Origin: Flavobacteriales bacterium
Lineage (GTDB): Bacteria; Bacteroidota; Bacteroidia; Flavobacteriales_C; GCA-002722245
Direction of reading: 5' to 3'
Assembly (NCBI GenBank): GCA_023251075.1
Contig: JAHEZM010000026.1
Coordinates: forward strand, 1 to 49,591
Length of the DNA: 49,591 nt
The translations under genes were made by a program, and so were the position numbers. The notes below the pieces were generated by a model. The model ran no database searches. It had not been told where the DNA came from and saw nothing but the letters and a program-made list of their open reading frames with translations. Positions 2,171 through 48,502 of this stretch are shown in pieces (positions within the stretch are counted from its first letter, which is position 1; every line of letters begins with the position of its first letter).

Positions 2171-2171
2171 A

Positions 2172-3101: not shown

Positions 3102-3138
3102 AAATCCCCTCCAATTTTCATTGAAGGGGATTTCTATT
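3102..3138. terminator. Bidirectional terminator between converging genes
   Basis: AAATCCCCT (3102-3110) pairs with AGGGGATTT (3125-3133). The stem continues after one mismatch through CAAT/ATTG around a TTTC loop. There are T-rich sequences on both strands beyond the stem, so it can serve the GSCFA gene (+) and the lipoprotein gene (-). Confidence 0.85.
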
Positions 3139-3154
3139 TTTGGATTAGGTCAGT

Positions 3155-3730
3155 TTATTTCATTTTGCTCATTTCTTCGTCGAAAGTCTTTTTGAATTTT
3201 TCGTAATCGTAATCAACTTTCAAACTTTCTTCTTTTGTTAATCTGTCGTTAATTGCTTGAACCAATTCATCAGCACCGTACTCAATTGCTACATAAGCTT
3301 TAAAATTACCTTCGGGTGATTTTGTTACTTTATCACAAATAACTCTTATCCCACTTAATTTTTGGTTAACTACTTCACGAGTTAATCCTTCATACTTTTG
3401 CTCAAGATCTTCTCTGTTGTTGTGAGTGTTGTCTTTAACATAGTTATCAAGAGTTGATTTGATAGTAGTATTAATGAACGACGCTAAATGTGCTTTTGCT
3501 TCAACTAGTGCCTTGTCTTTAGCGATTTGCTGATTCATACTCTCACTTACTGCATTGGCACGAAAAGTTTTTTTATCAGAGAAAAATTCTGGTCCGGTAC
3601 AATATTCGTTTACCAAAACTTCACCTACTGGAGCGGCTGCTTCTGTTTTCTTTTTGCTTTTACAACCAGTAATTGAAAAGGAAGCTACTAGAGCTAATAA
3701 AATTACTGAGGATTTAATTGTTGTTTTCAT
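3155..3730 (-). CDS. Small lipoprotein, LPP20-like
   Basis: The longest frame opens at 3787, but the ATG at 3730 begins a textbook lipoprotein signal: MKTT, a hydrophobic core, then ITGC with the lipid-modified Cys at residue 23. I therefore place the start there (191 residues). The mature part has a charged linker of lysines followed by a compact domain. Segments such as AKDKALVEAKAHLA and GNFKAYVAIEYG resemble the LPP20 family of bacterial outer-membrane lipoproteins, whose role is not well defined. The family assignment is by eye and tentative; the lipoprotein call is strong. It converges on the GSCFA gene and diverges from lgt, the enzyme that would lipidate it. Confidence 0.75.
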   Translation of the reverse strand: MKTTIKSSVILLALVASFSITGCKSKKKTEAAAPVGEVLVNEYCTGPEFFSDKKTFRANAVSESMNQQIAKDKALVEAKAHLASFINTTIKSTLDNYVKDNTHNNREDLEQKYEGLTREVVNQKLSGIRVICDKVTKSPEGNFKAYVAIEYGADELVQAINDRLTKEESLKVDYDYEKFKKTFDEEMSKMK

Positions 3731-3796
3731 GGCTTTGTGTATTAAATTTTCAAATTCTTTTAATGTTTGATATGAGATCATTTTCAATTAGTATGC

Positions 3797-3826
3797 CAAA
3801 ATATAAATTTACTAGTCATAAAGCAA
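3797..3826 (-). promoter_or_regulatory. Candidate promoter for the lipoprotein gene
   Basis: On the minus strand a TTG (3824-3826) and an 18-base spacer precede TATATTTTG (3797-3805). This is close to the Bacteroidota -33/-7 pattern but has one extra base inside the -7 element. It would give a leader of roughly 60 bases before the ATG at 3730. Confidence 0.4.
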
Positions 3827-3917
3827 GAAAGCCATTAATAAGCCTTGTTTTCTCTATTCTATTAATGTTTTCATGGCTGTGTCAGATGTTTACTTTATTT
3901 TTACCAAAAGCTATATT

Positions 3918-5072: not shown

Positions 5073-5869
5073 TGAACTATCAGAATTTATGTATGGATGT
5101 GGTTGCTCTCTCCAGAGAGGTGGGCCGATTCATGAAAGAAGAGAATAAGAAAATCAGAGGAAGTGATGTTGAGTCAAAAGAACATTTTAATTCTTTAGTG
5201 ACCTATGTAGATAAAACGGTAGAGAAGATGGTGATAGCGAAGTTGGAAACCTTTATTCCCAACGCCGGATTTATTGGAGAAGAAGGTACAAGCGATAAAA
5301 TAGGTGATGTTTACAATTGGATTATAGATCCTTTAGATGGTACTACAAATTTTATTCATGGTGTGCCTATTTACTCTGTATCCATTGCCTTAAAGGAGAA
5401 TGAAGAGATTGTTTTAGGAGTGGTGTATGAGGTGAATTTGGAGGAATGTTTTTATGCATGGAAAGATTCTAAAGCTTATCTCAACGGAAAAGAAATTTCT
5501 GTATCGTCGGCAAAAAGAATGGAGGATTCTTTGTTGGCAACCGGATTTCCCTACTGGGATTTTCATAAGATGGATGCTTACTTGCGAATAATGAAAGATT
5601 TTACAGCATGTACCCGTGGTTTAAGAAGAATTGGTTCTGCGGCTGTTGATTTGGCGTATGTGGCTGCGGGAAGATTTGAGGCTTTTTATGAATACAGTTT
5701 AAAACCCTGGGATATTGCAGGAGGAGCTTTTATTGTTGAAAGAGCGGGAGGGAAGGTTACCGATTTTTCGGGAAACAGAGATTTGATTTCAGGAAAAGAA
5801 ATATTAGCGAGTAACGGAATTTTACACGATACTTTACAACAAAAAATTGCAAAAGAATTTTTAGCCTAA
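5072..5869 (+). CDS. Inositol monophosphatase family protein
   Basis: The 265-residue product has all the Mg-binding motifs of the IMPase/SuhB family: GEEG at 69-72, DPLDGTTN at 86-93 and WDIAGGA with D214. The family removes phosphate from inositol monophosphates; some bacterial members act on other sugar phosphates, and SuhB also touches rRNA maturation. Which applies here cannot be told. It is cytoplasmic and full length. It overlaps lgt by one base and touches the glycosyltransferase at 5870 with no gap, so the run from lgt to the second glycosyltransferase reads as one transcript. Confidence 0.9.
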   Translation: MNYQNLCMDVVALSREVGRFMKEENKKIRGSDVESKEHFNSLVTYVDKTVEKMVIAKLETFIPNAGFIGEEGTSDKIGDVYNWIIDPLDGTTNFIHGVPIYSVSIALKENEEIVLGVVYEVNLEECFYAWKDSKAYLNGKEISVSSAKRMEDSLLATGFPYWDFHKMDAYLRIMKDFTACTRGLRRIGSAAVDLAYVAAGRFEAFYEYSLKPWDIAGGAFIVERAGGKVTDFSGNRDLISGKEILASNGILHDTLQQKIAKEFLA

Positions 5870-7111
5870 ATGAAAGTTGTTATTCTAAGTAATACAGATT
5901 CTGGTGGTGGTGCAGCTATTGCAGCGCGACGATTAAATGATGCTTTGAATAATAATGGAGTACATTCAAAAATGTTGGTGGTGCGAAAAATAACTAACGA
6001 TATTAATGTTAGTGAAGTTCCATTGAGCGGATTGAAGAGAAAAATTCTGAATGCTTTCACGTATTTGGAATATTTGTATCAAAGAAAAATCCTGTTAAAG
6101 GATAAAACTATTTCTATGTTTTCTACCAATGAAGTGGGCGTTGATATAACGCAACATCCATTGGTGAAAGAAGCAGATGTGATAAATATTCATTGGATTA
6201 ATTTCGGGTTTCTTTCTTTTCAAGAGATAGAAAATTTATATGCACTCAATAAAAAAATTATTTGGACTCTCCATGATATGTGGTTGTTTACCGGCGGTTG
6301 TCATTATTCAGGAGATTGCACTCAATTTCATGTCGATTGTAAAGCTTGTCCTTTAGTTTATTTCAAAAGTACTCCCCAAACTCTTTGGAAAAAGAAAATG
6401 CAATTATTTTCACAAAACAATATGACTGTTGTGGCACCTAGTCAGTGGTTGGTGGATGAAAGTAAATTATCTTCTTTATTAAAAAACGGCAAAGGTTTTT
6501 GTGTTCCCAATACATTAAATTCAAGTTTGTTTACAGCACATTCTAAAAAAGAAGCTTGTGTGAAATTGAAGTTGAATCCGGATAAAAAGTACATTCTTTT
6601 TTCTGCGGCAAATCCTAATGACGTACGAAAGGGGTTTGTTTATTTTGTTGAAGCAGTTAAACTATTAAAGCAACAGTATTCTAACTCTGAAGAATTAGAA
6701 TTATTGGTAATGGGGAAAGAACAGAAAATATTTAATGATCTTTCTTTACCTGTAAATAATTTAGGGTTTATTCGATCGGAAGAGCAGTCAGCATTAATTT
6801 ACAGTGCTGCTTCTGTTTTTGTGATTCCCTCTTTAGAAGACAATTTACCCAATACTATCATGGAGGCATTAAGTTGTGGTACTCCTTGTGTGGGATTCAA
6901 TATTGGTGGAATAAAAGAAATGATTCAAACCAATGTGAATGGTTATTTGGCAGAAGCAAGAAATGCAAAAGATTTAGCTTTAGGAATTAAAGATGTTCTA
7001 GAAAATGGAGAACAAAAAAATTTATCGGTTCAAGCAAGAGAATGGATGATGACTCATTACAGTAATAAAGTTATTGCAGATAAATATTTGAAGGTTTTTA
7101 ATGAGTGTTAA
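5870..7111 (+). CDS. Glycosyltransferase family 4-like
   Basis: This 413-residue protein has two Rossmann-like halves. The N-terminal half starts MKVVILSNTDSGGGAA and includes a TLHDMWLFTGGCHYSGDC block with a CKACP cluster, as in WcaC-like enzymes. The C-terminal half has the GT4 donor-binding region: VIPSLEDNLPNTIMEAL with the E-x7-E pattern, then SCGTPCVGF. It is likely a retaining transferase building a surface glycan on the cytoplasmic face of the membrane; donor and acceptor are unknown. It starts immediately after the phosphatase stop and overlaps the next glycosyltransferase by 11 bases. Confidence 0.86.
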   Translation: MKVVILSNTDSGGGAAIAARRLNDALNNNGVHSKMLVVRKITNDINVSEVPLSGLKRKILNAFTYLEYLYQRKILLKDKTISMFSTNEVGVDITQHPLVKEADVINIHWINFGFLSFQEIENLYALNKKIIWTLHDMWLFTGGCHYSGDCTQFHVDCKACPLVYFKSTPQTLWKKKMQLFSQNNMTVVAPSQWLVDESKLSSLLKNGKGFCVPNTLNSSLFTAHSKKEACVKLKLNPDKKYILFSAANPNDVRKGFVYFVEAVKLLKQQYSNSEELELLVMGKEQKIFNDLSLPVNNLGFIRSEEQSALIYSAASVFVIPSLEDNLPNTIMEALSCGTPCVGFNIGGIKEMIQTNVNGYLAEARNAKDLALGIKDVLENGEQKNLSVQAREWMMTHYSNKVIADKYLKVFNEC

Positions 7112-7841
7112 GGTAAGTATCATAACAGTAGTGTTCAATGGTGAGCATATCATTGAAAAAACAATTCAAAGTGTTTTGTCGCAAACCTATACTGATTTTG
7201 AGTACATCATTATTGATGGAAAATCTACCGATCGAACTTTAGAAATTATTGATCAATACAAAAGCAAAATTCAAATATTGGTAAGTGAAAAAGATAATGG
7301 TTTGTATGATGCAATGAACAAAGGGTTGGCTTTGGCTACTGGTGAATATGTGTGGTTTATGAATGGAGGTGATCAGATAGGAGATCCGGAGGTGCTTTCT
7401 AAAATTTTCACTTCTAATATTAATGCAGATATTTTTTATAGTGATACAGCATTGATTGATGAGCAAGGAAAATATCTTTCGTTATTGAGCGAGATTGGCC
7501 ATAACAACGCACCCCATCCATTAACATGGAAATCGATGGAAAGAGGAATGGTGGTTTGTCATCAATCTTTTATTGTAAAAAGAGCACTTACAAATCCTTT
7601 CGATTTACAGTATAAAATTAGCGCTGATATCGATTGGGTTATACAATGTTTGAAAAAAAGTAAATCCAATCACAAGTTCAATTTTTGTATTTCGAAATTC
7701 ATGGTGGGTGGAGTATCTAGTAAAAACAGGTGGAGAGCAGTAAAAGAAAGATTTCGTTTGTTTAATAAACACTATGGATTATTACGAAATCTTTACAATC
7801 ACATTTTTATTCTTAAAAGAATTATCAGCAAATCTTTTTAA
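7101..7841 (+). CDS. Glycosyltransferase family 2
   Basis: The 246-residue protein has a GT-A fold with an early SIITVVFNGEHIIEKTI block, a IIDGKSTD motif, SEKDNGLYDAMNKG, and GEYVWFMNGGD, where the metal-binding DxD is replaced by GGD-x-I as in many WcaA-like enzymes. It probably adds one sugar to a lipid-linked or surface polysaccharide. Its start lies inside the previous glycosyltransferase (11-base overlap), so the two are probably translated in a coupled way. It converges with the M1 peptidase gene, sharing four bases at the stops, and there is no hairpin there. Confidence 0.87.
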   Translation: MSVKVSIITVVFNGEHIIEKTIQSVLSQTYTDFEYIIIDGKSTDRTLEIIDQYKSKIQILVSEKDNGLYDAMNKGLALATGEYVWFMNGGDQIGDPEVLSKIFTSNINADIFYSDTALIDEQGKYLSLLSEIGHNNAPHPLTWKSMERGMVVCHQSFIVKRALTNPFDLQYKISADIDWVIQCLKKSKSNHKFNFCISKFMVGGVSSKNRWRAVKERFRLFNKHYGLLRNLYNHIFILKRIISKSF

Positions 7842-10800
7842 AAAGTTCTGTTGATTCCCAGTACCCATCTGAACTGAATATAATCAGGAGAAACGTATGG
7901 AGTTCGATTTAAGAAAAGAGGGAAATCAGCTCTTATCACTAAAGGTTTTACAGTTTCTAATCTTCCGAATTTTTTAATTTTAAAAGTGGTTCCAATACCT
8001 GCGTCGGCACTAAATATTCCTAGTTCGTTTTGAACAGAGCCAGTAGGTACTAACATCATTCCTGCATCACCAAATAAGTAGTAATCGAAATCGAAATACT
8101 GACGGGTTTTATTGTTCGACCATCTCATGTAATCACTAAATTCTAACTCAGCACTTACCGAAGTTCCAGAGATTCCTTTATTTCCAAAAACTACATCTCC
8201 TTTATTATCGAGTTGTGGCATTAGGTATCCGGAAAAACCTCTTAAGTTTAAACCTCCACCTTGCTGGAAGTGATTTATATTACCACCAATTTTTGCATCG
8301 GCAGTAGAGAATGCTCCCGCTGAACGAGTGTATTTATTATCCATTAGTTCTTCTGAGTTCGCACCCGATGCATTTAAGGAAGATTCTAAAGGAATGTTTG
8401 ATCCAGAACCAAATTGAGCGAAAAACCTTGTGCTGAAAATAAATCTATCCAAGTAATTGTGGTTTACTACCGACATCTTAATAGTTGCATAATCATAGTT
8501 GCTTCCAGGCATAGAAGTTCTTAATCCCACCTTAATTTCACCTTGTCCTCTTTCATAATGATAGATGTGGTAATAATCAATGTTGATAGTATTGTTCCAT
8601 TTGTTGGATGTCCATTGATTAGGAATTAATAAATATTGTAATGCATTGAAATCCTTTCGGTACATAGCTTTACCATAAATTCTAAAGCGATGATCTTTCT
8701 CTTTAGAGCTTTTACTTAATCCTAATTCATAGCGCTGTAGCCCTTCTAAATAACTAGAGTGTAAGTCAACACGAACATTTTTACCAAATTTATTTAACAG
8801 TGTGCTGTAATTTAAACGGTAAGAAAGCTTGTCGAATTTATTAATGAAAACATTGGTGTCGGTAATCGCTTGCCCCAACCCACTATTTAACCAAACATTA
8901 AAATCAAAAACATGAAAAACCTTTAAGTAACTACCATTCAAATGAACTCCTGTTTTTAGTCCATCATACCTGTTGTACCATAAATCGGGGCGGTAAAAGA
9001 ATTCGTAATTATTTCTATCGGCAGTATTTTGAATTTTTGAATCTACTTCAAAAGTGTGTGGACATTTTTTAGAATTGTCGATTGCATAAACATCAGCCAA
9101 ACGATGAGTAGGATCAATAATAACGTTGTAAACTCCATCGGGAACAATTACAGAGGCGCTGTATTCTTTTTCAAGATTTCCCCATCCATACCATTTGGGT
9201 AGCACGGTAGCATCAGTGTTTTTTACAAACCATGTATTTGGAATATGAAAATTCATCAAGCTATCATTATTGGTTACAATTTGAAAATCGATAGGCATTT
9301 GCATTTCTCCCTTACGGTTAAAAGTAATGATGTATTCATTTTCTTTCTCTCCTTTCTTAACGCTTTTCACAGAATAGTCGATCACTTTTGTAGTTTCCAG
9401 CCATTGATCAAAAAACCAGTTTAAATCAACTTGAGTATAGCTGATGATGGAGTTTCTAAAATCTTCAAAATAAGGGTGACAAATTTTCCATGTGTTGAAA
9501 TAATTTTGCATTGCGTGAATGAAGAGCGAATCGCCTAAAACATATTGCAGGTTGTACAACATGGTTGCAGTTTTATAGTAAACATGACCGTAACCGCCAG
9601 CATGTTTGATAGATCCACCATCGAAATCACTGGAGTGCGTATTTAAAGCTCTGTCGTCTCTTTGTGCTGCAGCATAAATATAATTATCATAAGCTCTTGT
9701 GTTTACTACCAATTGCTCTTTGTGGTATTTGCGTAAATACGAGTTTTTGATAGGTAGGTGATAAACAGTATCACCATCGATTTTAGATACCGCCCATGAA
9801 TCCAAAAATTGAGTGAAGCCTTCGTCTAGAGCAGCGCGATAAGTTTCGTTATTTCCTACCATTCCATAAAACCAGTTGTGGCCAATTTCATGCGCTAATA
9901 AACTTCGATAGTTGGGATCAACACCATTATCGAGGGTAAGCATTGGATATTCCATTCCATCTTTTGCATCGGCCACTACCATTTTAGGATAGATATATTT
10001 TCCGAAACTTTCCGAATAGGTTTTAATGACTTTAGAAGCATATTCAGCAGCATTTTTCCATCGAGGAGCATCCTCTTCTCGAACTACAGCAACACATAAA
10101 ATATCGTTCCAGTATTTTTCATCTATTCTGTAGGTGGGATCGGCTGTAAAAGCAAAGTCATGTACATTTTCAGCATGGTATATCCATGTTTTCTTTTTTC
10201 CGGGTTCATAAGGGGTAATAACTGTTATGGTATCGTTGGGTTTTCTATTCGTGAAATTACTTAGATCCAATTTTTTCCGCAAAGAATCTGGAAGTACTTC
10301 TGATCTGTTTTGTAACCATCCAGTGGCCTCTAAAACATAGTTTGAGGCCAAAGTTAATTCCACATCATAAGTACCATAATCTCCGTAAAATTCTTTGTCG
10401 AGATGTTGATCAGTACACCATCCAAATTTTCTATCATAAACCGCTATTCTTGGATACCAGTGCACCCCATCAAAATGAACATAACCTCTTCCAGTAGTAA
10501 ATAATTTCATTCTTCTGCTGTTTGAACCTTGATCAAAGTAGGATCTGAATTCAATTTCAAAAGCTGCTTTACCACCTGATTTTATAACCTGAGGTAGAAA
10601 CACTTTCAGAATAGTATTGTCTAATTCGGTTTTTACTTCAACTCCATTCACCTTGAATTTAGTGATCTCTGTTCCTTTTTTCTTTATTTCATAATACTTT
10701 CCATAAGAAGGATAATAGCCTTGTTGTTTTAGCAGGTTATCATAATAGGAGCCAGGTTGAAATGCATTTTGATACAAATGAAAATACACCACCGTTAAGG

Positions 10801-11047
10801 AATCCGGAGAATTATTCCAATACGTTAAAAATTCTTTGCCTGTAATAATATGAGTCTTTTCATTCAATTCGGCTTGAATGGTGTAATGAACATCTTGCTG
10901 CCAGTAGCCATCGTAAGGTTTTTTGTTTTTCCAATATTCAGGATTATTCCAGTTGCGATAGGAGTTGGGGGAGTGCAGTGGATCGTAGACCTGTGCAACT
11001 ATATTGATACTAATTATTAAGGCAAAAAGGGTGCTTATATTTTTCAT
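7838..11047 (-). CDS. M1-family metallopeptidase with C-terminal beta-barrel-like region
   Basis: The 1069-residue protein starts with a signal peptide (about residues 1-19). The peptidase part has a GMEYP exopeptidase-type motif and the zinc site HEIGH (H386, E387, H390) with the third ligand E409, exactly the HExxH-x18-E spacing of M1 aminopeptidases. A GGYGHVYYK segment fits the catalytic Tyr. From about residue 690 the sequence changes to alternating aromatic and polar strands, includes GLNLRGF as in Omp85-type barrels, and ends in Phe after WVLGINRTF. That looks like an outer-membrane beta-barrel fused to the peptidase, placing it at the outer membrane. Such long M1 proteins are seen in this phylum; the barrel part is my inference. 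Confidence 0.88.
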   Translation of the reverse strand: MKNISTLFALIISINIVAQVYDPLHSPNSYRNWNNPEYWKNKKPYDGYWQQDVHYTIQAELNEKTHIITGKEFLTYWNNSPDSLTVVYFHLYQNAFQPGSYYDNLLKQQGYYPSYGKYYEIKKKGTEITKFKVNGVEVKTELDNTILKVFLPQVIKSGGKAAFEIEFRSYFDQGSNSRRMKLFTTGRGYVHFDGVHWYPRIAVYDRKFGWCTDQHLDKEFYGDYGTYDVELTLASNYVLEATGWLQNRSEVLPDSLRKKLDLSNFTNRKPNDTITVITPYEPGKKKTWIYHAENVHDFAFTADPTYRIDEKYWNDILCVAVVREEDAPRWKNAAEYASKVIKTYSESFGKYIYPKMVVADAKDGMEYPMLTLDNGVDPNYRSLLAHEIGHNWFYGMVGNNETYRAALDEGFTQFLDSWAVSKIDGDTVYHLPIKNSYLRKYHKEQLVVNTRAYDNYIYAAAQRDDRALNTHSSDFDGGSIKHAGGYGHVYYKTATMLYNLQYVLGDSLFIHAMQNYFNTWKICHPYFEDFRNSIISYTQVDLNWFFDQWLETTKVIDYSVKSVKKGEKENEYIITFNRKGEMQMPIDFQIVTNNDSLMNFHIPNTWFVKNTDATVLPKWYGWGNLEKEYSASVIVPDGVYNVIIDPTHRLADVYAIDNSKKCPHTFEVDSKIQNTADRNNYEFFYRPDLWYNRYDGLKTGVHLNGSYLKVFHVFDFNVWLNSGLGQAITDTNVFINKFDKLSYRLNYSTLLNKFGKNVRVDLHSSYLEGLQRYELGLSKSSKEKDHRFRIYGKAMYRKDFNALQYLLIPNQWTSNKWNNTINIDYYHIYHYERGQGEIKVGLRTSMPGSNYDYATIKMSVVNHNYLDRFIFSTRFFAQFGSGSNIPLESSLNASGANSEELMDNKYTRSAGAFSTADAKIGGNINHFQQGGGLNLRGFSGYLMPQLDNKGDVVFGNKGISGTSVSAELEFSDYMRWSNNKTRQYFDFDYYLFGDAGMMLVPTGSVQNELGIFSADAGIGTTFKIKKFGRLETVKPLVIRADFPLFLNRTPYVSPDYIQFRWVLGINRTF

Positions 11048-11064
11048 GCTTAAAATATGATGCT

Positions 11065-11072
11065 CAAATATA
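11065..11072 (-). promoter_or_regulatory. Candidate -7 element for the M1 peptidase gene
   Basis: Read on the minus strand this is TATATTTG, a perfect TAnnTTTG. It lies 18 bases upstream of the start codon at 11047. No clear -33 TTTG is found at the usual distance. Confidence 0.4.
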
Positions 11073-11117
11073 CAATAGTAAATGTTGATTTTTTAAAAAA
11101 AATCCAAGTGAATTACT

Positions 11118-11125
11118 TAGTTTTG
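11118..11125 (+). promoter_or_regulatory. Candidate -7 element for the epimerase gene
   Basis: TAGTTTTG is a perfect TAnnTTTG match 21 bases before the ATG at 11147. The -33 region is only a T-rich stretch. Confidence 0.4.
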
Positions 11126-11146
11126 AACCCATAACAAAATCAGTAA

Positions 11147-12244
11147 ATGACGAAGAAAGTATTGGTGTGTGTTGGTACACGACCTAATCTTATCAAAATT
11201 ACTCGACTGAAAGAGTGCTTTGCAAAATATCCAAGCTTGCAATTTAAGTTATTGCATACCGGTCAGCATTTCGATTACAAAATGAGTAAAGTTTTTTTTG
11301 AAGAATTGGGTATTCCTTCCCCTGATGTTCTTTTTGAATTGCAACGAGAAAGTCAGATCAGTGTGGTTAGTCAGATTATGCTGCAGTTCGAAAAAGAAAT
11401 AATTAGCGATCGTCCAGATTTAATTGTGGTGCCGGGTGATGTAGATTCTACTTTTGCATGTGCTTTTGTAGCTAGCAGATATAAAATTCCTGTTGCTCAT
11501 ATAGAAAGCGGTTTGAGGAGTTTTGATAAAAATATGCCGGAAGAAATTAACCGTATTTTAGTAGATAATATAGCAGATTTGTTTTTTACTACTGAAAAAT
11601 CGGGAAATGAAAATTTATTGAGAGAAGGTAAAAGTAGAAACGATATTGTTTTTACAGGCAATACAATGATAGATTCGTTAATTAAATTTCAACCTAATAT
11701 TGAAAATAGCTCAATGTTGGAAAAATTGAATTTGGTTAAGGGGAACTATTTTACTGCAACTTTTCACCGGCCGTCGAATGTTGATTATGAGAAAAATTTA
11801 AAAGCAATATTTAAACTCATCAATAATATTTCAAAAAACACCAAGGTTATTTTTCCTATTCATCCTCGAACTTTGAAAAATGCTGAGCACTTTGGTTTTA
11901 ATCACTTATTGGAATGTGATAATATTGTTATTTGTGACCCTTTGGGGTATCTTGATTTTATGAAAATCATTAAGTATTCTAAGGGTGTTATTACCGACTC
12001 TGGCGGTATTCAGGAAGAAACTACCTTTTTAGGAGTTCCCTGTTTAACTATCAGGGATAATACAGAAAGACCGGTTACCGTTGAAGTTGGGACCAATACT
12101 TTATTGCCTTTGGATGAAGAAGAGATTATGCTTTATGTGAATCAAATCTTGATGAGGACTTATAAAACTGGTAGAATTCCTGAAAAATGGGATGGTAGAT
12201 CATCAGAAAGAATAGTGGAAGCCATCTACAAATTTTTGGCTTAA
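11147..12244 (+). CDS. wecB: UDP-N-acetylglucosamine 2-epimerase (non-hydrolysing)
   Basis: This enzyme interconverts UDP-GlcNAc and UDP-ManNAc, supplying ManNAc-type sugars for surface glycans. The 365-residue length is normal. Residues matching the known active site are visible: GDVDST (D98), HIESGLRS (E120), PEEINR (E133) and TFHRPSN (H207), followed by the C-terminal SGGIQEE UDP-binding loop. The N-terminal loop reads GTRPNLIK rather than the more common GTRPEAIK, a variant that may mark a subfamily with another HexNAc substrate. The gene stands alone on the plus strand between two minus-strand genes, diverging from the M1 peptidase and overlapping yihY by four bases at the stops. Confidence 0.87.
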   Translation: MTKKVLVCVGTRPNLIKITRLKECFAKYPSLQFKLLHTGQHFDYKMSKVFFEELGIPSPDVLFELQRESQISVVSQIMLQFEKEIISDRPDLIVVPGDVDSTFACAFVASRYKIPVAHIESGLRSFDKNMPEEINRILVDNIADLFFTTEKSGNENLLREGKSRNDIVFTGNTMIDSLIKFQPNIENSSMLEKLNLVKGNYFTATFHRPSNVDYEKNLKAIFKLINNISKNTKVIFPIHPRTLKNAEHFGFNHLLECDNIVICDPLGYLDFMKIIKYSKGVITDSGGIQEETTFLGVPCLTIRDNTERPVTVEVGTNTLLPLDEEEIMLYVNQILMRTYKTGRIPEKWDGRSSERIVEAIYKFLA

Positions 12245-35574: not shown

Positions 35575-38500
35575 ATGAAATTGTTTAATTACAAGGCGCT
35601 TTTTCTTTTTCTGGCAATGGTTTTTGCTGGTCCGGCCCTTGTGTATGCTCAACCCGGCACCGACTCTCCCTCTGCTAAAGAATTAAAGAAAAAATTAGAA
35701 AAAGAAGCCAAAGAGAAAGAAGAGAGGAGAAAAAGAGAAAATAAGGAGTATGAAAAGCGATTGCAGGAAAAGAAGAAAGAAACCAAGGCCAAAGAAAAAT
35801 TATTAAAGGAACAAAGTGCTTTAGCTGAGAAAGCTAGAATTAAGGAGCGTGCCCAAATGTTAAAGGATTTGGAGGAAAAAGCTCAAAAGGACAGGGAGGC
35901 AGAACTAGCTAAAGCCAAACAAGCTACATTGGAGGAGAAAAGAAAAGCAGAGCAAGTTAAAAGGGAACTTGTTGAGCAGGAAAAGCACAGGCAAAAACTG
36001 GAAGCGGAAAAGAAGAAGCAGGAGGAATTACAATCATTAAAAGAACGTGAGAAGAAAAAAGAAGCCGAACTTGATGCTCAAGCAGAAGCGAAGAAGAATC
36101 AATTTCTTAAGAAGGAAGAAGAGCTGAAGATAAAGCAAAAGGAGATGGAGGAAAAGGCTGTTAAAGAGCGCGAGAAAAAGGAGAAACATGAAAATTCGAA
36201 AAAAGATAATCAGAAAGAGTTAGATGCGGCTGTGCGTGAGCAGGCTGCTAAAAAAGCTAAAGAAGAGGCTGAAAAACAAGCGGAAATTGATAAAAAGAAA
36301 ATTCAAGGTAGTGTTGAGGAGGAAAAGGAAAAAGCAATTATAAGAGCTGAACAAGCAGAGGTTCAAAGAAAAATTGCTGAGTACAAAGAGAAAGAAAGAA
36401 AGGCGCAAGAAGATATCAGGAAGTTTAAGGAGGAAGCAAAAGCTAGAGCGGAGAAGGAAGAAATTGAATTTCAGCAACGATTATTAGAGCGTGAGGAGGA
36501 GTTGAAGCGCCAGAAAGAAATTGCTGAGTATAAGAACAAGAGCAAGGAGAAGGAAACTGAGCTCAAGGAAAAATTTGAACAACAAAAGAAAGAAGAAACG
36601 AGTCAGCAAGAATTGGCCCGTTTGAAAAAAGAAGCTGCTGAAAAAGCCGAGCAGGAGCGTTTGGCTTTATTGAAAGCAGAACAAGAAAAACGCTTGGCCG
36701 AAGCTAGAGAATCGGGGAATGAGCAACTGCAAAAAGCTGCGGAGGATGCCATTAGAGCTGAAAATCAGTTGAAAGATGAGCAAGATAGAGAGCTGGCCGC
36801 AATGAAAGCTCGAGAAGAAAAAAGAAAAGAAAAAGAAGCAAAGGATCTGGAGAAAATACGTTTAAAGGAAGATAAATTACTGGATAAAGGTGGGGATGAA
36901 GGGGATGAGAAAAAAATGGCAAAGGAAGAAGCTGCCGAAAAGAAAAAAGCAGAGTTTGAAAAGAAGAAAGCAGAGTTAAAAGCAGAAAAATTAAAAGAGG
37001 AAGAAGATAAAGCTCGTGCCAAAGAAGCTGCAAAAGTTGAAAAAGCAATGGAAGATGCGAAGAGGGCTGATCAAATTCGTAAAGAAACAGAAGAGATGTT
37101 GAAGCTGGAGGAAGAAGCAGCCGCATCTAAAAGAAAGTTAGCTGAAGCAAAAAAAGAAGAAGAAAAGAAGAGAAAAGAATTATTGGATAAGGCTAAAATT
37201 GAATCTGAATTAAAGGCATTAGAGGAAGAGAAGAAAGCTACCAAAGATGGGGTGAAGGAAAATAATGCAGAAACGGAACAAGCATACAAAGACAGAAAAT
37301 ATAAGGAGCAGGAGGCTGAAAAAGCCAAGAAATTGAAGGAGGAAGAAAAAGCATCTGTGGAGGATATTAAATTGAGAAAAGAATTAGAGAAAAAAATAGA
37401 ACAAGAGAAAAAAGAGGCTGTAAGAAAAGCAGAAGAAGCTGCCAATGCTAAAGATTTTGAAGAAAGAAAACAGAAATTAATAGGTGATATAGAAAAGCAA
37501 AAAGTAGAAAATGAAAAGGCTATCCAGGCCGAAAAAGAAAAAACGGCTAAGGAGTTGGTGCGCATTGAAAAAGAAAAGGAAATTCAAGCCAAAAAAGATA
37601 TAGAGGCTCAGAAAAAGAGAGAGTTAAAAGCTCAGGAATTGACTGTTAAAGATGCAGAATTACAAAAGAAAAGAGATCTTAAAAGCAGAGAGGATTCTAT
37701 AAAAAATAACGCTCAAAAAGAACGCAATGAAATTGCTGCGAAGGCCCGTGAAGTGAAGGCAAAAAAAGAGAAGGAAAAAGCGGAAGAGCAATTGAAAGCA
37801 GAGAAAGAAAAAACAGAGAAACTTAAAAATGACTTAAATAAAAATACGGTAACCAATACCGAGAAATTGAAGGAAGAAGAAATAAAGAATAAAATTTCTG
37901 AGGAGGCCAAAGCCAATGTAAGTGCAAAATCGAAGAAAGAAAAAGAGAAACAAGCCGAAGAAGAAAGATTGCGTAAGCTTCAGGACAAGGAGAATCAAAA
38001 TACAGCGGATCTTAAAAGTAAATTAAAAATGGCCGATTCATTAAGTAATGTGTCGGGTAAAAAATTGAGTTTTGAGGAACAAGTTATTCAGGATTATTAT
38101 GCAGGTAAAAAAGTTGGTTTTTATAGAAAAGCGGAGAAAGAAAAGATTTTATTAGAATATCGCAAAAAGAAAGACGAAGCTATTCAGCAGCAAAAAGATT
38201 CATTGGAACAAGCTATTAAAAAGTTGAAATCCGATCAGGAGAAAGTTCAGCAATCATCCATGACTGCTGCTAAGGAGCAAAAGTATATCGCTAATAAATT
38301 GCAAGAATTAGAAGAGCAGTTGAAGGTAGAGAAAGAAGCTAAAAATATTATAGAAAATAATTTGACTAAGTTGAAAGAGTCTGGATTATCTGGACCGAAC
38401 ATAGTTTTAGAGCAAAATATTTTGGGAAAACAATCTGATGAGAAACAAAAAGAAATAGAACGAATTGAGGCCGAGATGGCGAAATTGAAAGGAAGATCTG

Positions 38501-41232
38501 GCCAGTTGGTTCAACAAGAGAAAAAGAATAAGGAAAATGGTAAAAAGAAGAGTGACGAATTGGTGAAAGAAAATGAGGAGAATTTAAAGAAATTGGATCA
38601 AGAGGCGGCATTGAATAAAATAGAATTGCCTTCTGAAAGAAAAGAAAGATTGCGAAAAGAAAAATTAGAGAAACAGAAATTGGCTGCTGAGGAAAAATTG
38701 AAAATGGCAGAGCTTAAAGCAAAACAAGCAGAAGCAGATAAAATAGAAAAGGAGAGATTATTGGCAGAGAAAAAAGAAAAAGAACGCAAAGAATCAGAGT
38801 TGCTTGCTAAAGAGAAAGCATTTAATAACGAAGTAGCATCAAAAAAAGAAGAATTGCTGAGGAAAAAAGAAGAAGCAAAAAAAGAAAAAGAACGTGTTGC
38901 TTTAGAAAAGAAAAAGGAGAAAGAATTGGCGAAGTTGAATGCTATTCAAACAACAAAGAAAAATATAGATTCTTTGCCTGATAATGAGTTGTCGGCTAAA
39001 GAGAAAAAGTTTGAAGACAAAAAAGCTAAAGAATTAGAGAAGCTGAAAGAGGAAGAAAGGAGAATGGCGGAGAAAAATAATACCGACCCTACTGAGCGTA
39101 ATTCAACGAAGAAAGAAATTAAAATTCAAGGAATAAAGGTGCAGTTGGTTGAGCTAGAGAAAAGGCTTAAGGATGGATATGCCTCTAAAGACGAATATGA
39201 AAATAAATTAACCATTGTTGAACAAGATGCATCTGTTGATTCTGAGATTGAAAAATCAAAACTGAAAAGAAAAGTATCTGAAAAAAATGTAGAAATAGAA
39301 CAGCTCATTGCCCAGATAAAAGGGCTGCGTGAAGATTTGGCGAAAGAGGAAAATCTAGGAGAAGATATGACTAGTATTAAAACCCATGCTAAATCTGAAA
39401 CCGATTTAACCAAAGAAAAAAACGATGCGTTATTAGCAGAAGAAAAAAGAAAGATGAAGGAGGAACAAGAGTTGGCAGAATCTAATGCTAAAGCGAAAAT
39501 GATTGCTGATAAAAAGAGAATGGAGGAAGCTGAGAAGGGAAGAACTGATAATTTAAAAAAGCAGGAGGAAAAAGCCAAAGCAGAATTGTTGGCTAAAAAA
39601 GAAGAATTGGCAAATAAAGAGAAGGCAAGTGTGTTGAACTTTGAGAAGGAAAAATTGAAGATGGAAGGAGAAAGGAAGGAATTGGAAATAAAAGAAAAGA
39701 GAGAGAAATTATTGCAGGATGAGCAAGATAAATTATTGGCAGAGGAAAGAAGAATTGAAAAAGAAAAACTAAGTGCAATAGAGGCAGCTAAAAAAACTAC
39801 AGAGTTACGAGAGCTAAAGAAAATGGAGGAGTTGGAAAGAATTCGTCGAGATAATGAAGCAAAAGAGAGGATGGCTACCGAAGAGAAATTCAAGGCAGCT
39901 TTGGTTAAGGAAAGAATGGAACGTGAAAGATCATTAAGAGATTCTATTTTTAAGGCAGGTAAAGAAGCTGATTTGGTTCATGCTACCAACAAAAGAAAAT
40001 TTGATTCATTGGCTCAGGTGAAATTTAATGAGAATAAACAACGTCAGGATGAATACACTCTCCTGAAAATGAAAAAAGAGCAAGAGTTGGTTGCTCGTCA
40101 GGCAGAACTGCAAAAACAAAAAGAAGAGCAATTGAAGAAAAAAACAGGAACTACAGTTGTTTCTGAAGATGCGCGTAAGGCTCAGGAGGCCCGAATGAAA
40201 TATGAAGAAGAGATGAGGTTGGCTGAAAGATTAGAGAAGAAAAATGCTCAGCTAAAAGAAGAAGCAAGAAGAAAAGAGTTGCTGGAGAGTCAGAGATATA
40301 AAGTATTGGAAAGAGAAAAAATGATGATGGCTAAACAAAAAGCCAGAGAGGATTCTATCGCTGCATTTAATGCTATGAAGGAGGAGAGACAACGTCCTTT
40401 ACAACAACAGATATTGGCTAAAAATACAGAGAAAACAATGTTGGAAGATGAAATCAATAGCTTAAAAAATAAAGAAGTTGTTATCCTACAGGGCTATGTT
40501 AAAGAAAATGCGATGGCTAAACAATTAGAAGTGGAGAGTCAGCAAAAAGTGGGAATAGAGAAAATTAAAAAAAGTGCCGATGCCATTTTACAAGAGAAAA
40601 AAGCATTGGAGACGAAGCTTAAAGCAAAGGAAAATTATTTAACAAGATTAGGTAAGCAAGAGGAGTTAAATAAAATTCGTCAGGAATTAAATCTTCTTCA
40701 ACGTCAGTTAGATTTCACAGGATCAAAAATAGATACAACTACTTTGAATGCCGCGTTGAATGTGCAATATCAAAATATCGTTTTAGCAATGGATAAAATC
40801 AAAGTTGAAATTGATGCTTTGGAAACTGATATTAAAGCAAAGGAGGAAGAGTACAATGCTGAGTTAGCATTGGCTAAACAAGAGGAGGAGAAACAAAAAA
40901 GAATTGAAGCAAGCAGAAAAGTTCCTAATATTTCTATGAAGGATTTGAATAGTCAGATGGAAGGATTAAACAAAGAATTAAAGAATGCAGTTACGTTGGC
41001 AGATAAAGAGAAAGTAAGCAAGAGAATTCATGAGTTGGAGCGACAGTATCCAGAAGGAGTTCACGAAGAATTGATTACTGAATCAGGGCGTACTATTAAA
41101 AAAGTTGCAGTGAGTAAAGGAGGTAAGGTTTTAATTTACAAAATGATTGTTTACTCATGGGGTGGTACTTACTATTTCAAAAATGAAACTACTATCACCA
41201 AGCAGGTATTTGACAGGGAAACAGCTTACTAA
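35575..41232 (+). CDS. Giant secreted Lys/Glu/Ala-rich helical protein
   Basis: The 1885-residue product begins with a signal peptide (residues 1-25, cleaved after VYA). I chose the ATG at 35575 for that reason, although the frame opens at 35527. About 1700 residues of almost uninterrupted charged helix follow, with runs such as KEKEERRKRENKE, very few Gly or Pro, and only short breaks (near residues 815-860 and 1140-1190). It could be coiled coil or single alpha-helix. The last 90 or so residues look different: YPEGVHEELITESG, then a beta-rich end with VYSWGGTYYFKN, probably a small globular domain. No lipobox, outer-membrane or T9SS sorting signal is seen. I do not recognise a family. A structural or tethering role in the periplasm is a guess. 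Confidence 0.8.
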   Translation: MKLFNYKALFLFLAMVFAGPALVYAQPGTDSPSAKELKKKLEKEAKEKEERRKRENKEYEKRLQEKKKETKAKEKLLKEQSALAEKARIKERAQMLKDLEEKAQKDREAELAKAKQATLEEKRKAEQVKRELVEQEKHRQKLEAEKKKQEELQSLKEREKKKEAELDAQAEAKKNQFLKKEEELKIKQKEMEEKAVKEREKKEKHENSKKDNQKELDAAVREQAAKKAKEEAEKQAEIDKKKIQGSVEEEKEKAIIRAEQAEVQRKIAEYKEKERKAQEDIRKFKEEAKARAEKEEIEFQQRLLEREEELKRQKEIAEYKNKSKEKETELKEKFEQQKKEETSQQELARLKKEAAEKAEQERLALLKAEQEKRLAEARESGNEQLQKAAEDAIRAENQLKDEQDRELAAMKAREEKRKEKEAKDLEKIRLKEDKLLDKGGDEGDEKKMAKEEAAEKKKAEFEKKKAELKAEKLKEEEDKARAKEAAKVEKAMEDAKRADQIRKETEEMLKLEEEAAASKRKLAEAKKEEEKKRKELLDKAKIESELKALEEEKKATKDGVKENNAETEQAYKDRKYKEQEAEKAKKLKEEEKASVEDIKLRKELEKKIEQEKKEAVRKAEEAANAKDFEERKQKLIGDIEKQKVENEKAIQAEKEKTAKELVRIEKEKEIQAKKDIEAQKKRELKAQELTVKDAELQKKRDLKSREDSIKNNAQKERNEIAAKAREVKAKKEKEKAEEQLKAEKEKTEKLKNDLNKNTVTNTEKLKEEEIKNKISEEAKANVSAKSKKEKEKQAEEERLRKLQDKENQNTADLKSKLKMADSLSNVSGKKLSFEEQVIQDYYAGKKVGFYRKAEKEKILLEYRKKKDEAIQQQKDSLEQAIKKLKSDQEKVQQSSMTAAKEQKYIANKLQELEEQLKVEKEAKNIIENNLTKLKESGLSGPNIVLEQNILGKQSDEKQKEIERIEAEMAKLKGRSGQLVQQEKKNKENGKKKSDELVKENEENLKKLDQEAALNKIELPSERKERLRKEKLEKQKLAAEEKLKMAELKAKQAEADKIEKERLLAEKKEKERKESELLAKEKAFNNEVASKKEELLRKKEEAKKEKERVALEKKKEKELAKLNAIQTTKKNIDSLPDNELSAKEKKFEDKKAKELEKLKEEERRMAEKNNTDPTERNSTKKEIKIQGIKVQLVELEKRLKDGYASKDEYENKLTIVEQDASVDSEIEKSKLKRKVSEKNVEIEQLIAQIKGLREDLAKEENLGEDMTSIKTHAKSETDLTKEKNDALLAEEKRKMKEEQELAESNAKAKMIADKKRMEEAEKGRTDNLKKQEEKAKAELLAKKEELANKEKASVLNFEKEKLKMEGERKELEIKEKREKLLQDEQDKLLAEERRIEKEKLSAIEAAKKTTELRELKKMEELERIRRDNEAKERMATEEKFKAALVKERMERERSLRDSIFKAGKEADLVHATNKRKFDSLAQVKFNENKQRQDEYTLLKMKKEQELVARQAELQKQKEEQLKKKTGTTVVSEDARKAQEARMKYEEEMRLAERLEKKNAQLKEEARRKELLESQRYKVLEREKMMMAKQKAREDSIAAFNAMKEERQRPLQQQILAKNTEKTMLEDEINSLKNKEVVILQGYVKENAMAKQLEVESQQKVGIEKIKKSADAILQEKKALETKLKAKENYLTRLGKQEELNKIRQELNLLQRQLDFTGSKIDTTTLNAALNVQYQNIVLAMDKIKVEIDALETDIKAKEEEYNAELALAKQEEEKQKRIEASRKVPNISMKDLNSQMEGLNKELKNAVTLADKEKVSKRIHELERQYPEGVHEELITESGRTIKKVAVSKGGKVLIYKMIVYSWGGTYYFKNETTITKQVFDRETAY

Positions 41233-44773: not shown

Positions 44774-47590
44774 ATGCCATTAGACAAATCCATCAAATCG
44801 GTCCTCATTATAGGTAGCGGACCCATCGTTATCGGACAAGCGTGTGAATTCGATTATTCAGGGTCTCAAGCTTCCCGCTCATTGAAAGAAGAAGGAATTG
44901 AAGTGTCCCTGATCAATTCGAATCCGGCAACTATTATGACCGATCCGGTAACCGCCGATCATGTTTACTTAATGCCTCTTGAGGTAGAATCAATTGAACA
45001 TATTTTAAAAGAAAGAAAAATTGATGCTGTATTGCCTACTATGGGCGGACAAACTGCCTTAAATCTTTGTATCGAGTGCGATAAAATTGGAATTTGGAAA
45101 AAGTATGGAGTTCGCTTGATTGGTGTGGATATCGATGCGATTGAAATATGTGAGAACCGCGATAAGTTCCGTATGCTAATGGATAAAATTGGTATCGGAC
45201 AAGCTCCTTCAAGAATCGTTAGGTCTTTCCTAGAAGGTAAAGAGTTCGCTCAAGAAATTGGTTTCCCTTTGGTAATTCGTCCGTCTTACACTCTTGGTGG
45301 TAAAGGTGCGGCCTTTGTTCATAAAAAAGAAGATTTCGATACTTTACTTACCCGCGGTTTACACGCTTCGCCTATTCATGAGGTTTTGATGGATAAAGCG
45401 GTGTTGGGCTGGAAAGAATACGAGTTGGAGTTGTTGCGCGATAAAAATGATAACGTGGTTATTATTTGTTCTATCGAGAACTTCGATCCAATGGGGGTTC
45501 ATACCGGTGATTCTATTACCGTGGCTCCTGCCATGACTTTGTCTGACAGAACCTATCAGCGTATGCGTGATCACGCAATATTGATGATGCGTTCTATTGG
45601 TAATTTCTCTGGTGGATGTAACGTGCAGTTTGCTGTGAGTCCTGATGATGCTGAAGATATTATTGCGATTGAAATCAATCCGCGTGTTTCTCGTTCATCG
45701 GCTTTGGCTTCTAAAGCTACCGGTTATCCTATTGCTAAAATTGCTTCTAAGTTAGCTATTGGCTATACTTTAGATGAGTTAGATAATCAAATTACCAAAT
45801 CTACTTCGGCTTTGTTTGAGCCAACTTTAGATTATGTTATCGTAAAAATTCCTCGTTGGAACTTCAATAAATTCCCTGGTGCCGATCGTCAGTTAGGTTT
45901 GCAAATGAAATCAGTGGGTGAGGTAATGGGTATCGGTCGTTCTTTTCAAGAGGCTTTACAAAAGGCTTGTCAGTCCTTAGAAATCAATAGAAATGGTTTA
46001 GGTGCCGATGGTAAAGAAGAGCGCAATCAAGATAAAATTCTATATAGTTTAGAGCATCCATCTTGGAATCGTTTGTTTCATGTGTACGATGCATTCAAAT
46101 TGGGCATTCCATTGAAAACCATTTACGATAAAACAAAGATTGATTTCTGGTTCCTGAATCAAATTGAAGAGTTGATTGCTTTAGAAAAAGAAATTGAAAA
46201 ATTCACCATTGATACTATCTCTAAAGATTTGTTGATGGAAGCCAAACAAAAAGGATACGGTGACCGTCAATTGGGGCATTTGTTAAGATGTGTGGAGAGT
46301 AAAGTGTTTGATAAACGCCATGAAATGGGCATCAAACGCGTGTACAAATTAGTAGATACTTGTGCGGCAGAGTTTGAAGCGAAAACACCTTATTACTATT
46401 CTACTTTCGAATTGGAAAATGAATCTATCGTTACCAATAAGAAAAAAGTGGTGGTGTTGGGTAGTGGTCCGAATCGTATCGGACAAGGTATTGAGTTTGA
46501 CTACTCTTGTGTTCATGGTGTATTGGCGGCGAAAGAAGCAGGTTACGAAACCATTATGATCAATTGTAATCCTGAAACGGTTTCTACCGATTTCAGCACT
46601 GCCGATAAATTGTATTTCGAACCAGTTTTTTGGGAACATATTTACGATATCATCATGCACGAAAAACCTGAAGGGGTGATCGTTCAGTTAGGTGGACAAA
46701 CAGCATTGAAATTGGCTGAGAAGCTAGATAAATACGGTATTAAAATTATTGGCACTTCATATAAAGCGCTCGATTTAGCAGAAGACAGAGGTGCCTTTTC
46801 TACATTGTTGGCAGAAAATAATGTGCCTTATCCTGAATTTGGAGTTATTGAAACTGCTGAAGAGGCAAGTGCTTTGGCAAAAACATTAAAGTTCCCGTTG
46901 TTGGTTCGTCCTTCGTACGTGTTAGGCGGACAAGGAATGAAAATCGTAATCAACGAGCAAGAGCTAGAGCATCATGTAGTAGAACTGATTAAAGATATTC
47001 CGGGTAATAAAATTTTATTAGACCATTATTTAGATGGAGCTATTGAGGCCGAAGCCGATGCGATTTGCGATGGTGAAGATGTTTACATAATAGGTATCAT
47101 GCAGCATATTGAGCCTGCGGGTATTCACTCCGGAGATTCATACGCAGTATTGCCTCCATACAATTTAGGGGATTTAATCATTACTCAAATTGAAGAAATT
47201 ACCAAAAAAATTGCAGTGGCTTTAAGAACTGTTGGTTTATTGAATATTCAGTTTGCTATTAAAGACGATAAGGTATATGTAATTGAGGCTAACCCTCGTG
47301 CATCTCGTACCGTTCCTTTCATTGCGAAAGCTTACAGAGAGCCTTATGTGAACTATGCTACCAAAATAATGTTGGGTGATAAAAAAGTGAAAGACTTTGA
47401 CTTTAAGCCATTCAAAAAAGGATATGCTATTAAAGTGCCTGTATTCTCTTTCGATAAATTCCCTAATGTGAATAAAGAATTGGGACCAGAGATGAAATCA
47501 ACAGGTGAAGCCATTCAATTTATTGATGACTTGACTGATCCATTCTTCAGAAAAGTTTATTCTGAAAGAAATCTATACTTAAGCAGATAA
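44774..47590 (+). CDS. carB: Carbamoyl-phosphate synthase large subunit, lacking the allosteric domain
   Basis: CarB makes carbamoyl phosphate from glutamine-derived ammonia, bicarbonate and two ATP for arginine and pyrimidine synthesis. Both halves are present, each with its GSGP-x-x-IGQ start (SGPIVIGQACEFDYSG and SGPNRIGQGIEFDYSC) and ATP-grasp domain; the GGQTAL and NPR(V/A)SR motifs also occur twice. At 938 residues it stops right where the C-terminal MGS-like regulatory domain (about residues 934-1073 in E. coli) would begin, so binding of UMP, IMP and ornithine at that site should be absent. The stop is natural, with no pseudogene signs, and shortened CarB is, as far as I recall, usual in parts of Bacteroidota. 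carA is not adjacent. It overlaps the DUF4834 gene by one base. Confidence 0.95.
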   Translation: MPLDKSIKSVLIIGSGPIVIGQACEFDYSGSQASRSLKEEGIEVSLINSNPATIMTDPVTADHVYLMPLEVESIEHILKERKIDAVLPTMGGQTALNLCIECDKIGIWKKYGVRLIGVDIDAIEICENRDKFRMLMDKIGIGQAPSRIVRSFLEGKEFAQEIGFPLVIRPSYTLGGKGAAFVHKKEDFDTLLTRGLHASPIHEVLMDKAVLGWKEYELELLRDKNDNVVIICSIENFDPMGVHTGDSITVAPAMTLSDRTYQRMRDHAILMMRSIGNFSGGCNVQFAVSPDDAEDIIAIEINPRVSRSSALASKATGYPIAKIASKLAIGYTLDELDNQITKSTSALFEPTLDYVIVKIPRWNFNKFPGADRQLGLQMKSVGEVMGIGRSFQEALQKACQSLEINRNGLGADGKEERNQDKILYSLEHPSWNRLFHVYDAFKLGIPLKTIYDKTKIDFWFLNQIEELIALEKEIEKFTIDTISKDLLMEAKQKGYGDRQLGHLLRCVESKVFDKRHEMGIKRVYKLVDTCAAEFEAKTPYYYSTFELENESIVTNKKKVVVLGSGPNRIGQGIEFDYSCVHGVLAAKEAGYETIMINCNPETVSTDFSTADKLYFEPVFWEHIYDIIMHEKPEGVIVQLGGQTALKLAEKLDKYGIKIIGTSYKALDLAEDRGAFSTLLAENNVPYPEFGVIETAEEASALAKTLKFPLLVRPSYVLGGQGMKIVINEQELEHHVVELIKDIPGNKILLDHYLDGAIEAEADAICDGEDVYIIGIMQHIEPAGIHSGDSYAVLPPYNLGDLIITQIEEITKKIAVALRTVGLLNIQFAIKDDKVYVIEANPRASRTVPFIAKAYREPYVNYATKIMLGDKKVKDFDFKPFKKGYAIKVPVFSFDKFPNVNKELGPEMKSTGEAIQFIDDLTDPFFRKVYSERNLYLSR

Positions 47591-47841
47591 TGTATTTATT
47601 AACGATATCAAGTTTTTTTCGCACCGTGCTCATCATTATTGTGGTGATTTACGGTGCGAAACTTTTTATTCGTCACATACTTCCCTTAATGATTGAGAAT
47701 AAGGTGAACGAGATGAAAAAACGTCAGAATGGATTGTCGGAGCAAGAAGCAGAGCATCTCAAAAAACAAGAAGGAAAAATAAAGATTTCACAAAACCCTT
47801 CTAAGGATGGTGAATATGTGGAGTATGAAGAGGTGAAATAG
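47590..47841 (+). CDS. DUF4834 small membrane protein
   Basis: The 83-residue product has one N-terminal transmembrane helix (about residues 8-27) followed by a basic amphipathic stretch (IENKVNEMKKRQNG) and an acidic tail (DGEYVEYEEVK). This layout is that of DUF4834, a small protein family of Bacteroidota with unknown function. The start overlaps the carB stop (TAATG), so it is coupled to carB. Confidence 0.75.
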   Translation: MYLLTISSFFRTVLIIIVVIYGAKLFIRHILPLMIENKVNEMKKRQNGLSEQEAEHLKKQEGKIKISQNPSKDGEYVEYEEVK

Positions 47842-47863: not shown

Positions 47864-48502
47864 ATGTTTTTCAAAAAACATTTATTTCTTTCTATTATTT
47901 TATTTCTATTAAGTTCATTTTCGTTGAACAACAGAATAGTTGATTTAGGAATTACAACCAAAGAAGGGCAAACTCAATTTGAAATTTTAACTGATAATTT
48001 TCCTACATCCAAAGGGTGTAAAGTTTACCATTCGTATAAAAAGGAACTTGATGTTTTTAAAGGAGTTCACTGTGCAATTAACCTTAGTGAAGCTTTACTG
48101 GGTAGTGGCTACGAATTGCCTTGTGTTAAAGGTTCAATGTGTTGGGGAGAATGCTCAACCCGAAAACATAGAAAGCATATTGTTAATGCTTCAGTATTAG
48201 GGGCATTTTTTTTGAAAAAATATAGAGATAAGGTTGTTGAATTAAAAGGAGCCAACTATTATAAATACGTTAAGGGAAAGAAAGGAATAATCTATTTTGA
48301 AAATTATTGGACTAAAAAAGAGGATAGAAAAGGATATCCATCAGGAGATCACATTGATTTATGGGATGGTAAAAAATTGCTTGCTTATGGCGGATTTGGA
48401 ACTTGGGTGAGAAATCATAGCAATTACACGATAGAACATGGCGGTGCTGGTCCGTCACCACTTCAAAAAGCCGAAAAGGTATATTTTATTGAGCTTAGGT
48501 GA
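47864..48502 (+). CDS. Tae4-like peptidoglycan amidase with a signal peptide
   Basis: After a hydrophobic export signal (about residues 1-21) this 212-residue protein matches the layout of Tae4 amidases, the Cys-His enzymes that cut gamma-D-Glu-mDAP bonds in peptide stems. HCAINLSEALLGSG (C70) fits the nucleophile helix, and KGKKGIIYFENYW with GDHIDLWDG (H163, then Asp) fits the second part of the site. Extra Cys residues (C52, C87, C93, C97) may form disulphides. Tae4 is normally a type VI effector without a signal peptide, paired with a Tai4 immunity protein; neither T6SS nor Tai4 genes are seen here. It may be an exported housekeeping or secreted cell-wall hydrolase. The family call is by eye. 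Confidence 0.62.
   Translation: MFFKKHLFLSIILFLLSSFSLNNRIVDLGITTKEGQTQFEILTDNFPTSKGCKVYHSYKKELDVFKGVHCAINLSEALLGSGYELPCVKGSMCWGECSTRKHRKHIVNASVLGAFFLKKYRDKVVELKGANYYKYVKGKKGIIYFENYWTKKEDRKGYPSGDHIDLWDGKKLLAYGGFGTWVRNHSNYTIEHGGAGPSPLQKAEKVYFIELR

Follow-up and report, generated by a model that had tools for sequence, protein, structure and literature searches.

A small C-terminal domain shared by exported stalk proteins of Bacteroidota caps a giant protein with a predicted charged helical rod

A stretch of 49,591 nucleotides from an uncultured member of the Flavobacteriales (here called the window) encodes a giant exported protein, most of which is predicted to form a charged helical rod, and which ends in a small folded domain that also closes many other exported stalk proteins. 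The rod gene is conserved and under selection. We give a probability of roughly 0.5 to the reading in which the protein is an envelope-bound rod that lies along the periplasm, not across it, and is attached through its C-terminal domain.

Gene model, export signal and rod

The features of the rod gene are collected in Table 1. The mechanical open reading frame begins 16 codons further upstream, with a TTG at 35527, and the ATG at 35575 was taken as the start because it yields a signal peptide and agrees with the orthologues. A long orthologue occurs in nine of ten genomes of this uncultured order. It measures about 1,885-1,930 residues in the window's genus, and the sister-genus proteins are longer, at about 2,240 residues. 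One assembly has the frame interrupted near the N-terminus, and one genome (G001) has a shorter paralogue only. For the closest orthologue pair, 88% identical, dN/dS falls from the whole-gene value in Table 1 to 0.038 in the last 60 residues. A plasmid search gave no match.

Table 1. Features of the rod gene within the 49,591-nt window. The whole-gene row encodes 1,885 residues and includes the stop codon.
Feature	Coordinates	Strand	Basis
Whole gene, 1,885-aa exported helical rod protein	35575..41232	+	ORF; dN/dS 0.145 between orthologues
Signal peptide, residues 1-25, VYA|Q, Bacteroidetes Q-rule	35575..35649	+	A/S-Q kept in 8/8 orthologues with complete N-terminus
N-terminal charged helical rod, residues 27-832	35653..38070	+	13-20% LIVMFYW; weak heptad signal in window's genus
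Conserved central node, residues 833-1025	38071..38649	+	Invariant Gly844, Gly940, Pro1019
Helix-break motif LKESGLSG, residues 933-940	38371..38394	+	49.8% of chain length; orthologues with full N-terminus 49-51%
C-terminal charged helical rod, residues 1026-1605	38650..40389	+	Composition and periodicity analysis
Conserved pre-C-terminal helical segment, residues 1606-1790	40390..40944	+	Part homologous to 3,124-aa L054 protein
C-terminal beta-meander domain, residues 1825-1885	41047..41229	+	YPEG..WGG..YFKN..F..ET; AlphaFold2 model

In Bacteroidetes, signal peptidase I as a rule cleaves so that Gln is left at position +1 (PMC5837995). Every rod orthologue with a complete N-terminus has the A/S-Q pair at the cleavage place. 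The initial annotation had claimed a cleavable signal and export, and this conserved motif upholds it, cleavage being read from the motif. The mature chain has no second membrane-like segment (best 19-residue mean hydropathy 0.83, versus 1.9 in the signal), and the giant's N-terminus carries no lipid or membrane anchor.

These observations bear on an alternative in which the hydrophobic N-terminal stretch is never removed, leaving a TolA- or TonB-like helix that is anchored in the inner membrane and reaches out with its C-terminal domain. TolA of the Tol-Pal system has the same layout of hydrophobic N-terminus, K/E/A-rich periplasmic helix and small C-terminal domain, and tol-pal loci are not identifiable in Bacteroidetes (PMC12204202). 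The giant, however, differs from TolA in its rod of about 1,760 residues, in having a cleavable signal for a membrane anchor, and in its unrelated C-terminal domain. The conserved A/S-Q motif argues against this alternative, as does the rod itself, far longer than is needed to transmit force across the periplasm. Neither Pfam nor NCBIfam, at the thresholds used, gave a TolA or TonB C-terminal match for the whole protein, its end or its relatives, and the scanned window proteins include no neighbouring TolQ/TolR-type genes. We regard a TolA-like arrangement as very unlikely.

Residues 27-1785 consist of 21.2% Lys, 20.3% Glu and 10.7% Ala, with 1.6% Gly and 0.5% Pro; the last two together make up 37 of 1,759 residues (2.1%), and the longest run free of both is 212 residues. 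The claim of about 1700 residues of Lys/Glu/Ala helix with hardly a Gly or Pro is thereby confirmed, and the length of well over 200 nm proposed for a single helix agrees with our value of about 264 nm for one straight helix of about 1,760 residues at 0.15 nm per residue. Helicity is deduced from the sequence and from a model of the last 212 residues. Compared with shuffled sequences, opposite charges at i+3/i+4 are enriched (z +5 to +8; +5.6 to +7.8 at i+4) and like charges at these spacings are depleted (z -7 to -9). At the level of sequence, such charge pairing is the signature of a charge-stabilised helix.

The type of helix differs somewhat along the chain and between genera. The N-terminal rod, poor in the large hydrophobics LIVMFYW, has no clear heptad signal in the window protein; more amphipathic stretches lie near residues 800-1020, 1150-1230 and 1640-1720. 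In orthologue-averaged profiles, hydrophobic periodicity near 3.5 residues reaches z 1 to 4 in the window's genus, versus z of at least 5 in the sister genus, whose orthologues have a strong periodicity of 3.5-3.6 residues. The sequence features of a stable single alpha-helix are present (i/i+4 opposite charges, few helix breakers, low hydrophobics), and the N-terminal rod resembles such helices in its i/i+3 and i/i+4 opposite-charge pairs and scarcity of hydrophobics. The giant differs from them in its much greater length and in coiled-coil-like periodicity in the sister genus and in hinge-proximal parts. With weak heptads here and strong periodicity among the sister-genus orthologues, we describe the rod as a charge-stabilised helix with predicted coiled-coil segments. 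On the choice between coiled coil and single helix that had been set for checking, charge stabilisation and weak heptads are borne out for the window's genus, but a pure single helix is too simple a description, given the sister-genus periodicity and a break at the midpoint of the chain.

Sister-genus rod orthologues, at 45-51% identity, have 0.2-0.4 gap openings per 100 residues, an indel rate similar to that of globular neighbours that are better conserved at 57-68% (a small control set). So few indels suggest, within the limits of that control set, that the length or register of the rod is constrained. Four helix breakers in the stalk are invariant in the orthologue alignment: Gly844, Gly940, Pro1019 and Pro1608. 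Around Gly940, almost exactly at mid-chain (Table 1), lies the motif L(K/N)xSGL(S/T)G.

A midpoint break would be explained if the protein were an antiparallel hairpin of about 130 nm, folded at this invariant place so that the N-terminus meets the C-terminal domain, in the manner of an SMC arm but extracytoplasmic. The break keeps its relative position although total length varies by about 320 residues, the two arms of the sister-genus proteins are equal within about 1%, and both show the 3.5-3.6 hydrophobic periodicity. The insertions and deletions, however, are not mirrored: the N-terminal arm gained 133 residues at about 353 residues from the break while the gain in the C-terminal arm lies at 141-258, and in the window protein the C-arm is shorter by about 34 lost residues while the N-arm is unchanged. 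With several invariant Gly and Pro residues, one near the middle is not very surprising, and the similarity of the C-terminal domain to SMC heads by Foldseek and VIA is at noise level (E 0.02-0.07, Z below 7). Because the length gains are unmirrored, the hairpin is kept as a rival, an unlikely one in our judgment.

The C-terminal domain and its family

The AlphaFold2 model places strands at residues 1828-1836, 1839-1848, 1851-1860, 1865-1869 and 1872-1874, followed by a helix at 1876-1883; two short helices precede the folded end. Modeled alone, the last 61 residues reach pLDDT 91 and pTM 0.77. The C-terminal cap suggested by the initial annotation is therefore indeed a folded domain, although nearer 60 than 90 residues in length. 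G, W, Y, F, N and E occupy its near-invariant positions, among which no catalytic set is apparent.

No known family had come to mind for this protein, and a C-terminal profile search bore this out, since nothing in Pfam, NCBIfam or PDB matched significantly. Pfam and NCBIfam models, applied to the C-terminus, the whole protein and dozens of relatives, gave chance-level matches only. Against PDB, the best match by sequence profile had an E-value of 0.14, which is without significance, and the best by fold (Foldseek) had E-values of 0.018 with the longer model and 0.065 with the domain by itself. The fold matches were mainly SMC-head beta-meanders and methyltransferases, with VIA-align Z scores of at most 6.7 and 5.8; kinship to either was dismissed, as the arrangement is common and the scores are insignificant. 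A description of the domain was likewise not found in the literature searched, outside which most subscription papers fall. The domain family thus appears to be undescribed in the family libraries and papers searched.

Of 60 Bacteroidia genomes sampled, 36 encode relatives of the last 104 residues, and often more than one; in a phylum-wide sample just 2 of 247 genomes do. A profile scan of genome contigs yielded 80 loci, nearly all from metagenome-assembled genomes of Flavobacteriales, Bacteroidales or Bacteroidetes, together with Cryomorpha ignava. The domain forms the extreme C-terminus in all 80, with 0-26 residues beyond it. Typically the protein opens with a signal peptide, and a carboxypeptidase-regulatory-like beta domain and a stalk, either charged-helix or TPR-like, lie between it and the C-terminal domain. 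MORN-like repeats begin a few of these proteins. By a simple pattern, 52 of 63 domain-bearing proteins have a Q-rule signal, several of the misses being failures of the pattern or of the start site. The window protein belongs to the family so defined, with the WGG/YFKN profile at its extreme C-terminus behind a signal peptide. A 3,124-residue protein from another family (L054) shares with it both the domain and the preceding helical segment (one-sequence BLASTP E-value 1e-10).

This protein, encoded at 2021-11395 on the reverse strand of contig G055:C23, is an even larger exported relative, also mostly charged helix, with an internal domain near residues 2230-2345 that by eye resembles the carboxypeptidase-regulatory type. 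At six other loci (L113, L131, L136, L137, L138 and L150), exported paralogues with a like N-terminal beta domain stand in tandem, one of them carrying the C-terminal domain.

A cap common to many exported stalk proteins speaks for attachment or targeting, and less for a role that the giant alone would have. The suggestion that the cap might be an anchor gains from this sharing, although the initial annotation had overlooked that the cap is a widespread module.

Sorting signals and gliding

Targeting could take the form of an unrecognized C-terminal sorting signal, for the type IX secretion system (T9SS) or another outer-membrane route, in which case the giant would be a secreted or cell-surface filament. 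The domain comes last in all 80 loci, on otherwise differing exported proteins, as sorting domains do. It resembles the known T9SS C-terminal domains (CTDs; TIGR04183 and TIGR04131) in being a short beta domain that ends many different exported Bacteroidota proteins. SprA was found in 36 of 36 sampled genomes bearing the domain, and the three genomes without SprA also lack the domain, a split that by hand calculation has a chance probability of about 0.06 and is suggestive only.

The window's genome (G000; 3.3 Mb) encodes SprA and has 128 type A and 56 type B T9SS CTD matches. None of these places is at the C-terminus of the rod gene, for which the NCBIfam scan was empty, and hhalign of the domain against 20 CTDs of the same genome gave a probability of 0.2%; homology to type A or type B CTDs is thus ruled out by profile. 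CTDs were also absent from the fold-match lists. Known T9SS CTDs are immunoglobulin-like seven-stranded beta-sandwiches (PMC11285876), whereas the predicted domain is a five-strand meander with a helix, the topologies being compared by description. The upstream TPR regions and charged rods, moreover, appear periplasmic, and the presence of the domain in so few of the phylum-wide genomes implies that the T9SS has no need of it. A sorting signal therefore seems to us doubtful. We hold as equally doubtful the broader proposal that the domain is a new class of sorting or anchoring signal on many exported rod and TPR proteins of uncultured Bacteroidota, with the giant a fixed-length surface or periplasmic filament that it delivers or docks.

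The CTD places of this genome amount to a heavy load of secreted cargo. One lies in the window itself, where a frame open at the window start (3-1184, forward strand) has a type B CTD (G000:C40:891-1178).

A track or mechanical element specific to gliding, one of the roles first put forward for the giant, would fit the SprA, the 56 type B CTDs and a GldJ-like gene in this genome, the last scoring 401 bits, under the cut-off of 458. T9SS and gliding genes are, however, near-universal in relatives with or without the domain, the domain is almost absent from the phylum-wide sample, and no neighbourhood links it to gliding. The proposal is left without specific support, and we consider it most improbable.

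Gene neighbourhoods and a probable role along the envelope

The giant's neighbours are not conserved: an ABC transporter in the window, CinA/TerC in another genome of the genus, and an M74-type peptidase with MORN_2 proteins in the sister genus. An operon clue to its function was dropped because the neighbours differ between relatives. Elsewhere in the window, a 212-residue protein encoded at 47864-48502 on the forward strand matches the Tae4 family of type VI secretion amidase effectors (Pfam E-value 2e-18). It is directly preceded by an 83-residue frame without match (47590-47841, forward), possibly an effector with a small partner gene. The carbamoyl-phosphate synthase large subunit at 44774-47590 (forward; 938 residues) seemingly has its C-terminal part missing or split off, as the NCBIfam match ends at position 926 of 1058.

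Across the family, gene context is envelope-related but varied. At locus L157, the domain gene lies in an apparent operon between two CHU_0125/PorE-type genes, 6 and 38 bases away, the first of which encodes a protein with a peptidoglycan-binding OmpA domain at its end. Cells deleted for chu_0125 have a damaged outer membrane (PMC5891637), and a tether between outer membrane and peptidoglycan is the role proposed for PorE (PMC12204202). Two lipoprotein-type genes, one CsgG/LpoB-like and one LPP20, precede the paralogue in the window's own genome. At five Bacteroidales-type loci, ABC-importer genes (periplasmic binding protein and/or FecCD) follow the domain gene; they were identified by Pfam in L098, and by similarity to L098 in L094, L100, L102 and L120.

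Comparison with known envelope proteins finds partial likenesses. PorE/CHU_0125-type proteins are exported, carry a binding domain at the C-terminus behind TPR and carboxypeptidase-regulatory-like modules, and flank the family member at L157; the giant, by contrast, has no OmpA domain, TPR or carboxypeptidase-regulatory-like domain, is not a lipoprotein, and has a different C-terminal module. The OmpA peptidoglycan-binding domain was found at 16 places in the genome, none in the rod gene, for which the Pfam scan was empty. The SlpA connector of Deinococcus is also a very long coiled-coil-containing protein joining envelope layers (PMC9388160), but with an SLH domain and an outer-membrane barrel, neither of which the Pfam scan found in the giant.

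Among the envelope tether, filament and track first listed as candidates, we prefer a tether along the envelope, and give gliding mechanics little weight. The protein would be exported by Sec and then cut by signal peptidase I, at the motif observed. In the periplasm it would form a mostly helical rod of about 130-260 nm, stabilised by salt bridges within the helix and, in part, by coiled-coil pairing. The periplasm is usually many times narrower than this. The rod would consequently have to run along the envelope or fold back. The last 61 residues may dock it to a common envelope component, for which the candidates are peptidoglycan, the outer membrane and an abundant protein of the outer membrane. 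The rod may then brace the wall or serve as a long tether running along it.

Attachment is favoured by the envelope-type partner modules predicted in the family, namely carboxypeptidase-regulatory-like domains and, in several relatives, TPRs. The export signals, the constant C-terminal position of the domain, its lack of catalytic-type residues, the neighbours at L157 and of the window genome's paralogue, and the scarcity of indels in the rod also speak for this reading. Against it, no relation of the domain to a known peptidoglycan- or membrane-binding fold was detected, neighbourhoods are not conserved and at five loci lead into importer genes, and placement at the extreme C-terminus fits a sorting signal too. 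A tether in particular would call for a second attachment, for which the giant has no N-terminal lipid or membrane anchor.

Charged rods with a C-terminal cap are already known, but a rod of such size outside the cytoplasm is unusual, as is the conservation of its length from one orthologue to the next. Of greater interest than the giant rod is the shared domain. It offers a searchable mark for envelope proteins of lineages in which tol-pal loci were reportedly not identifiable, and one of its carriers, Cryomorpha ignava (a 258-residue member, L147), is in culture, where binding by the domain is directly testable.
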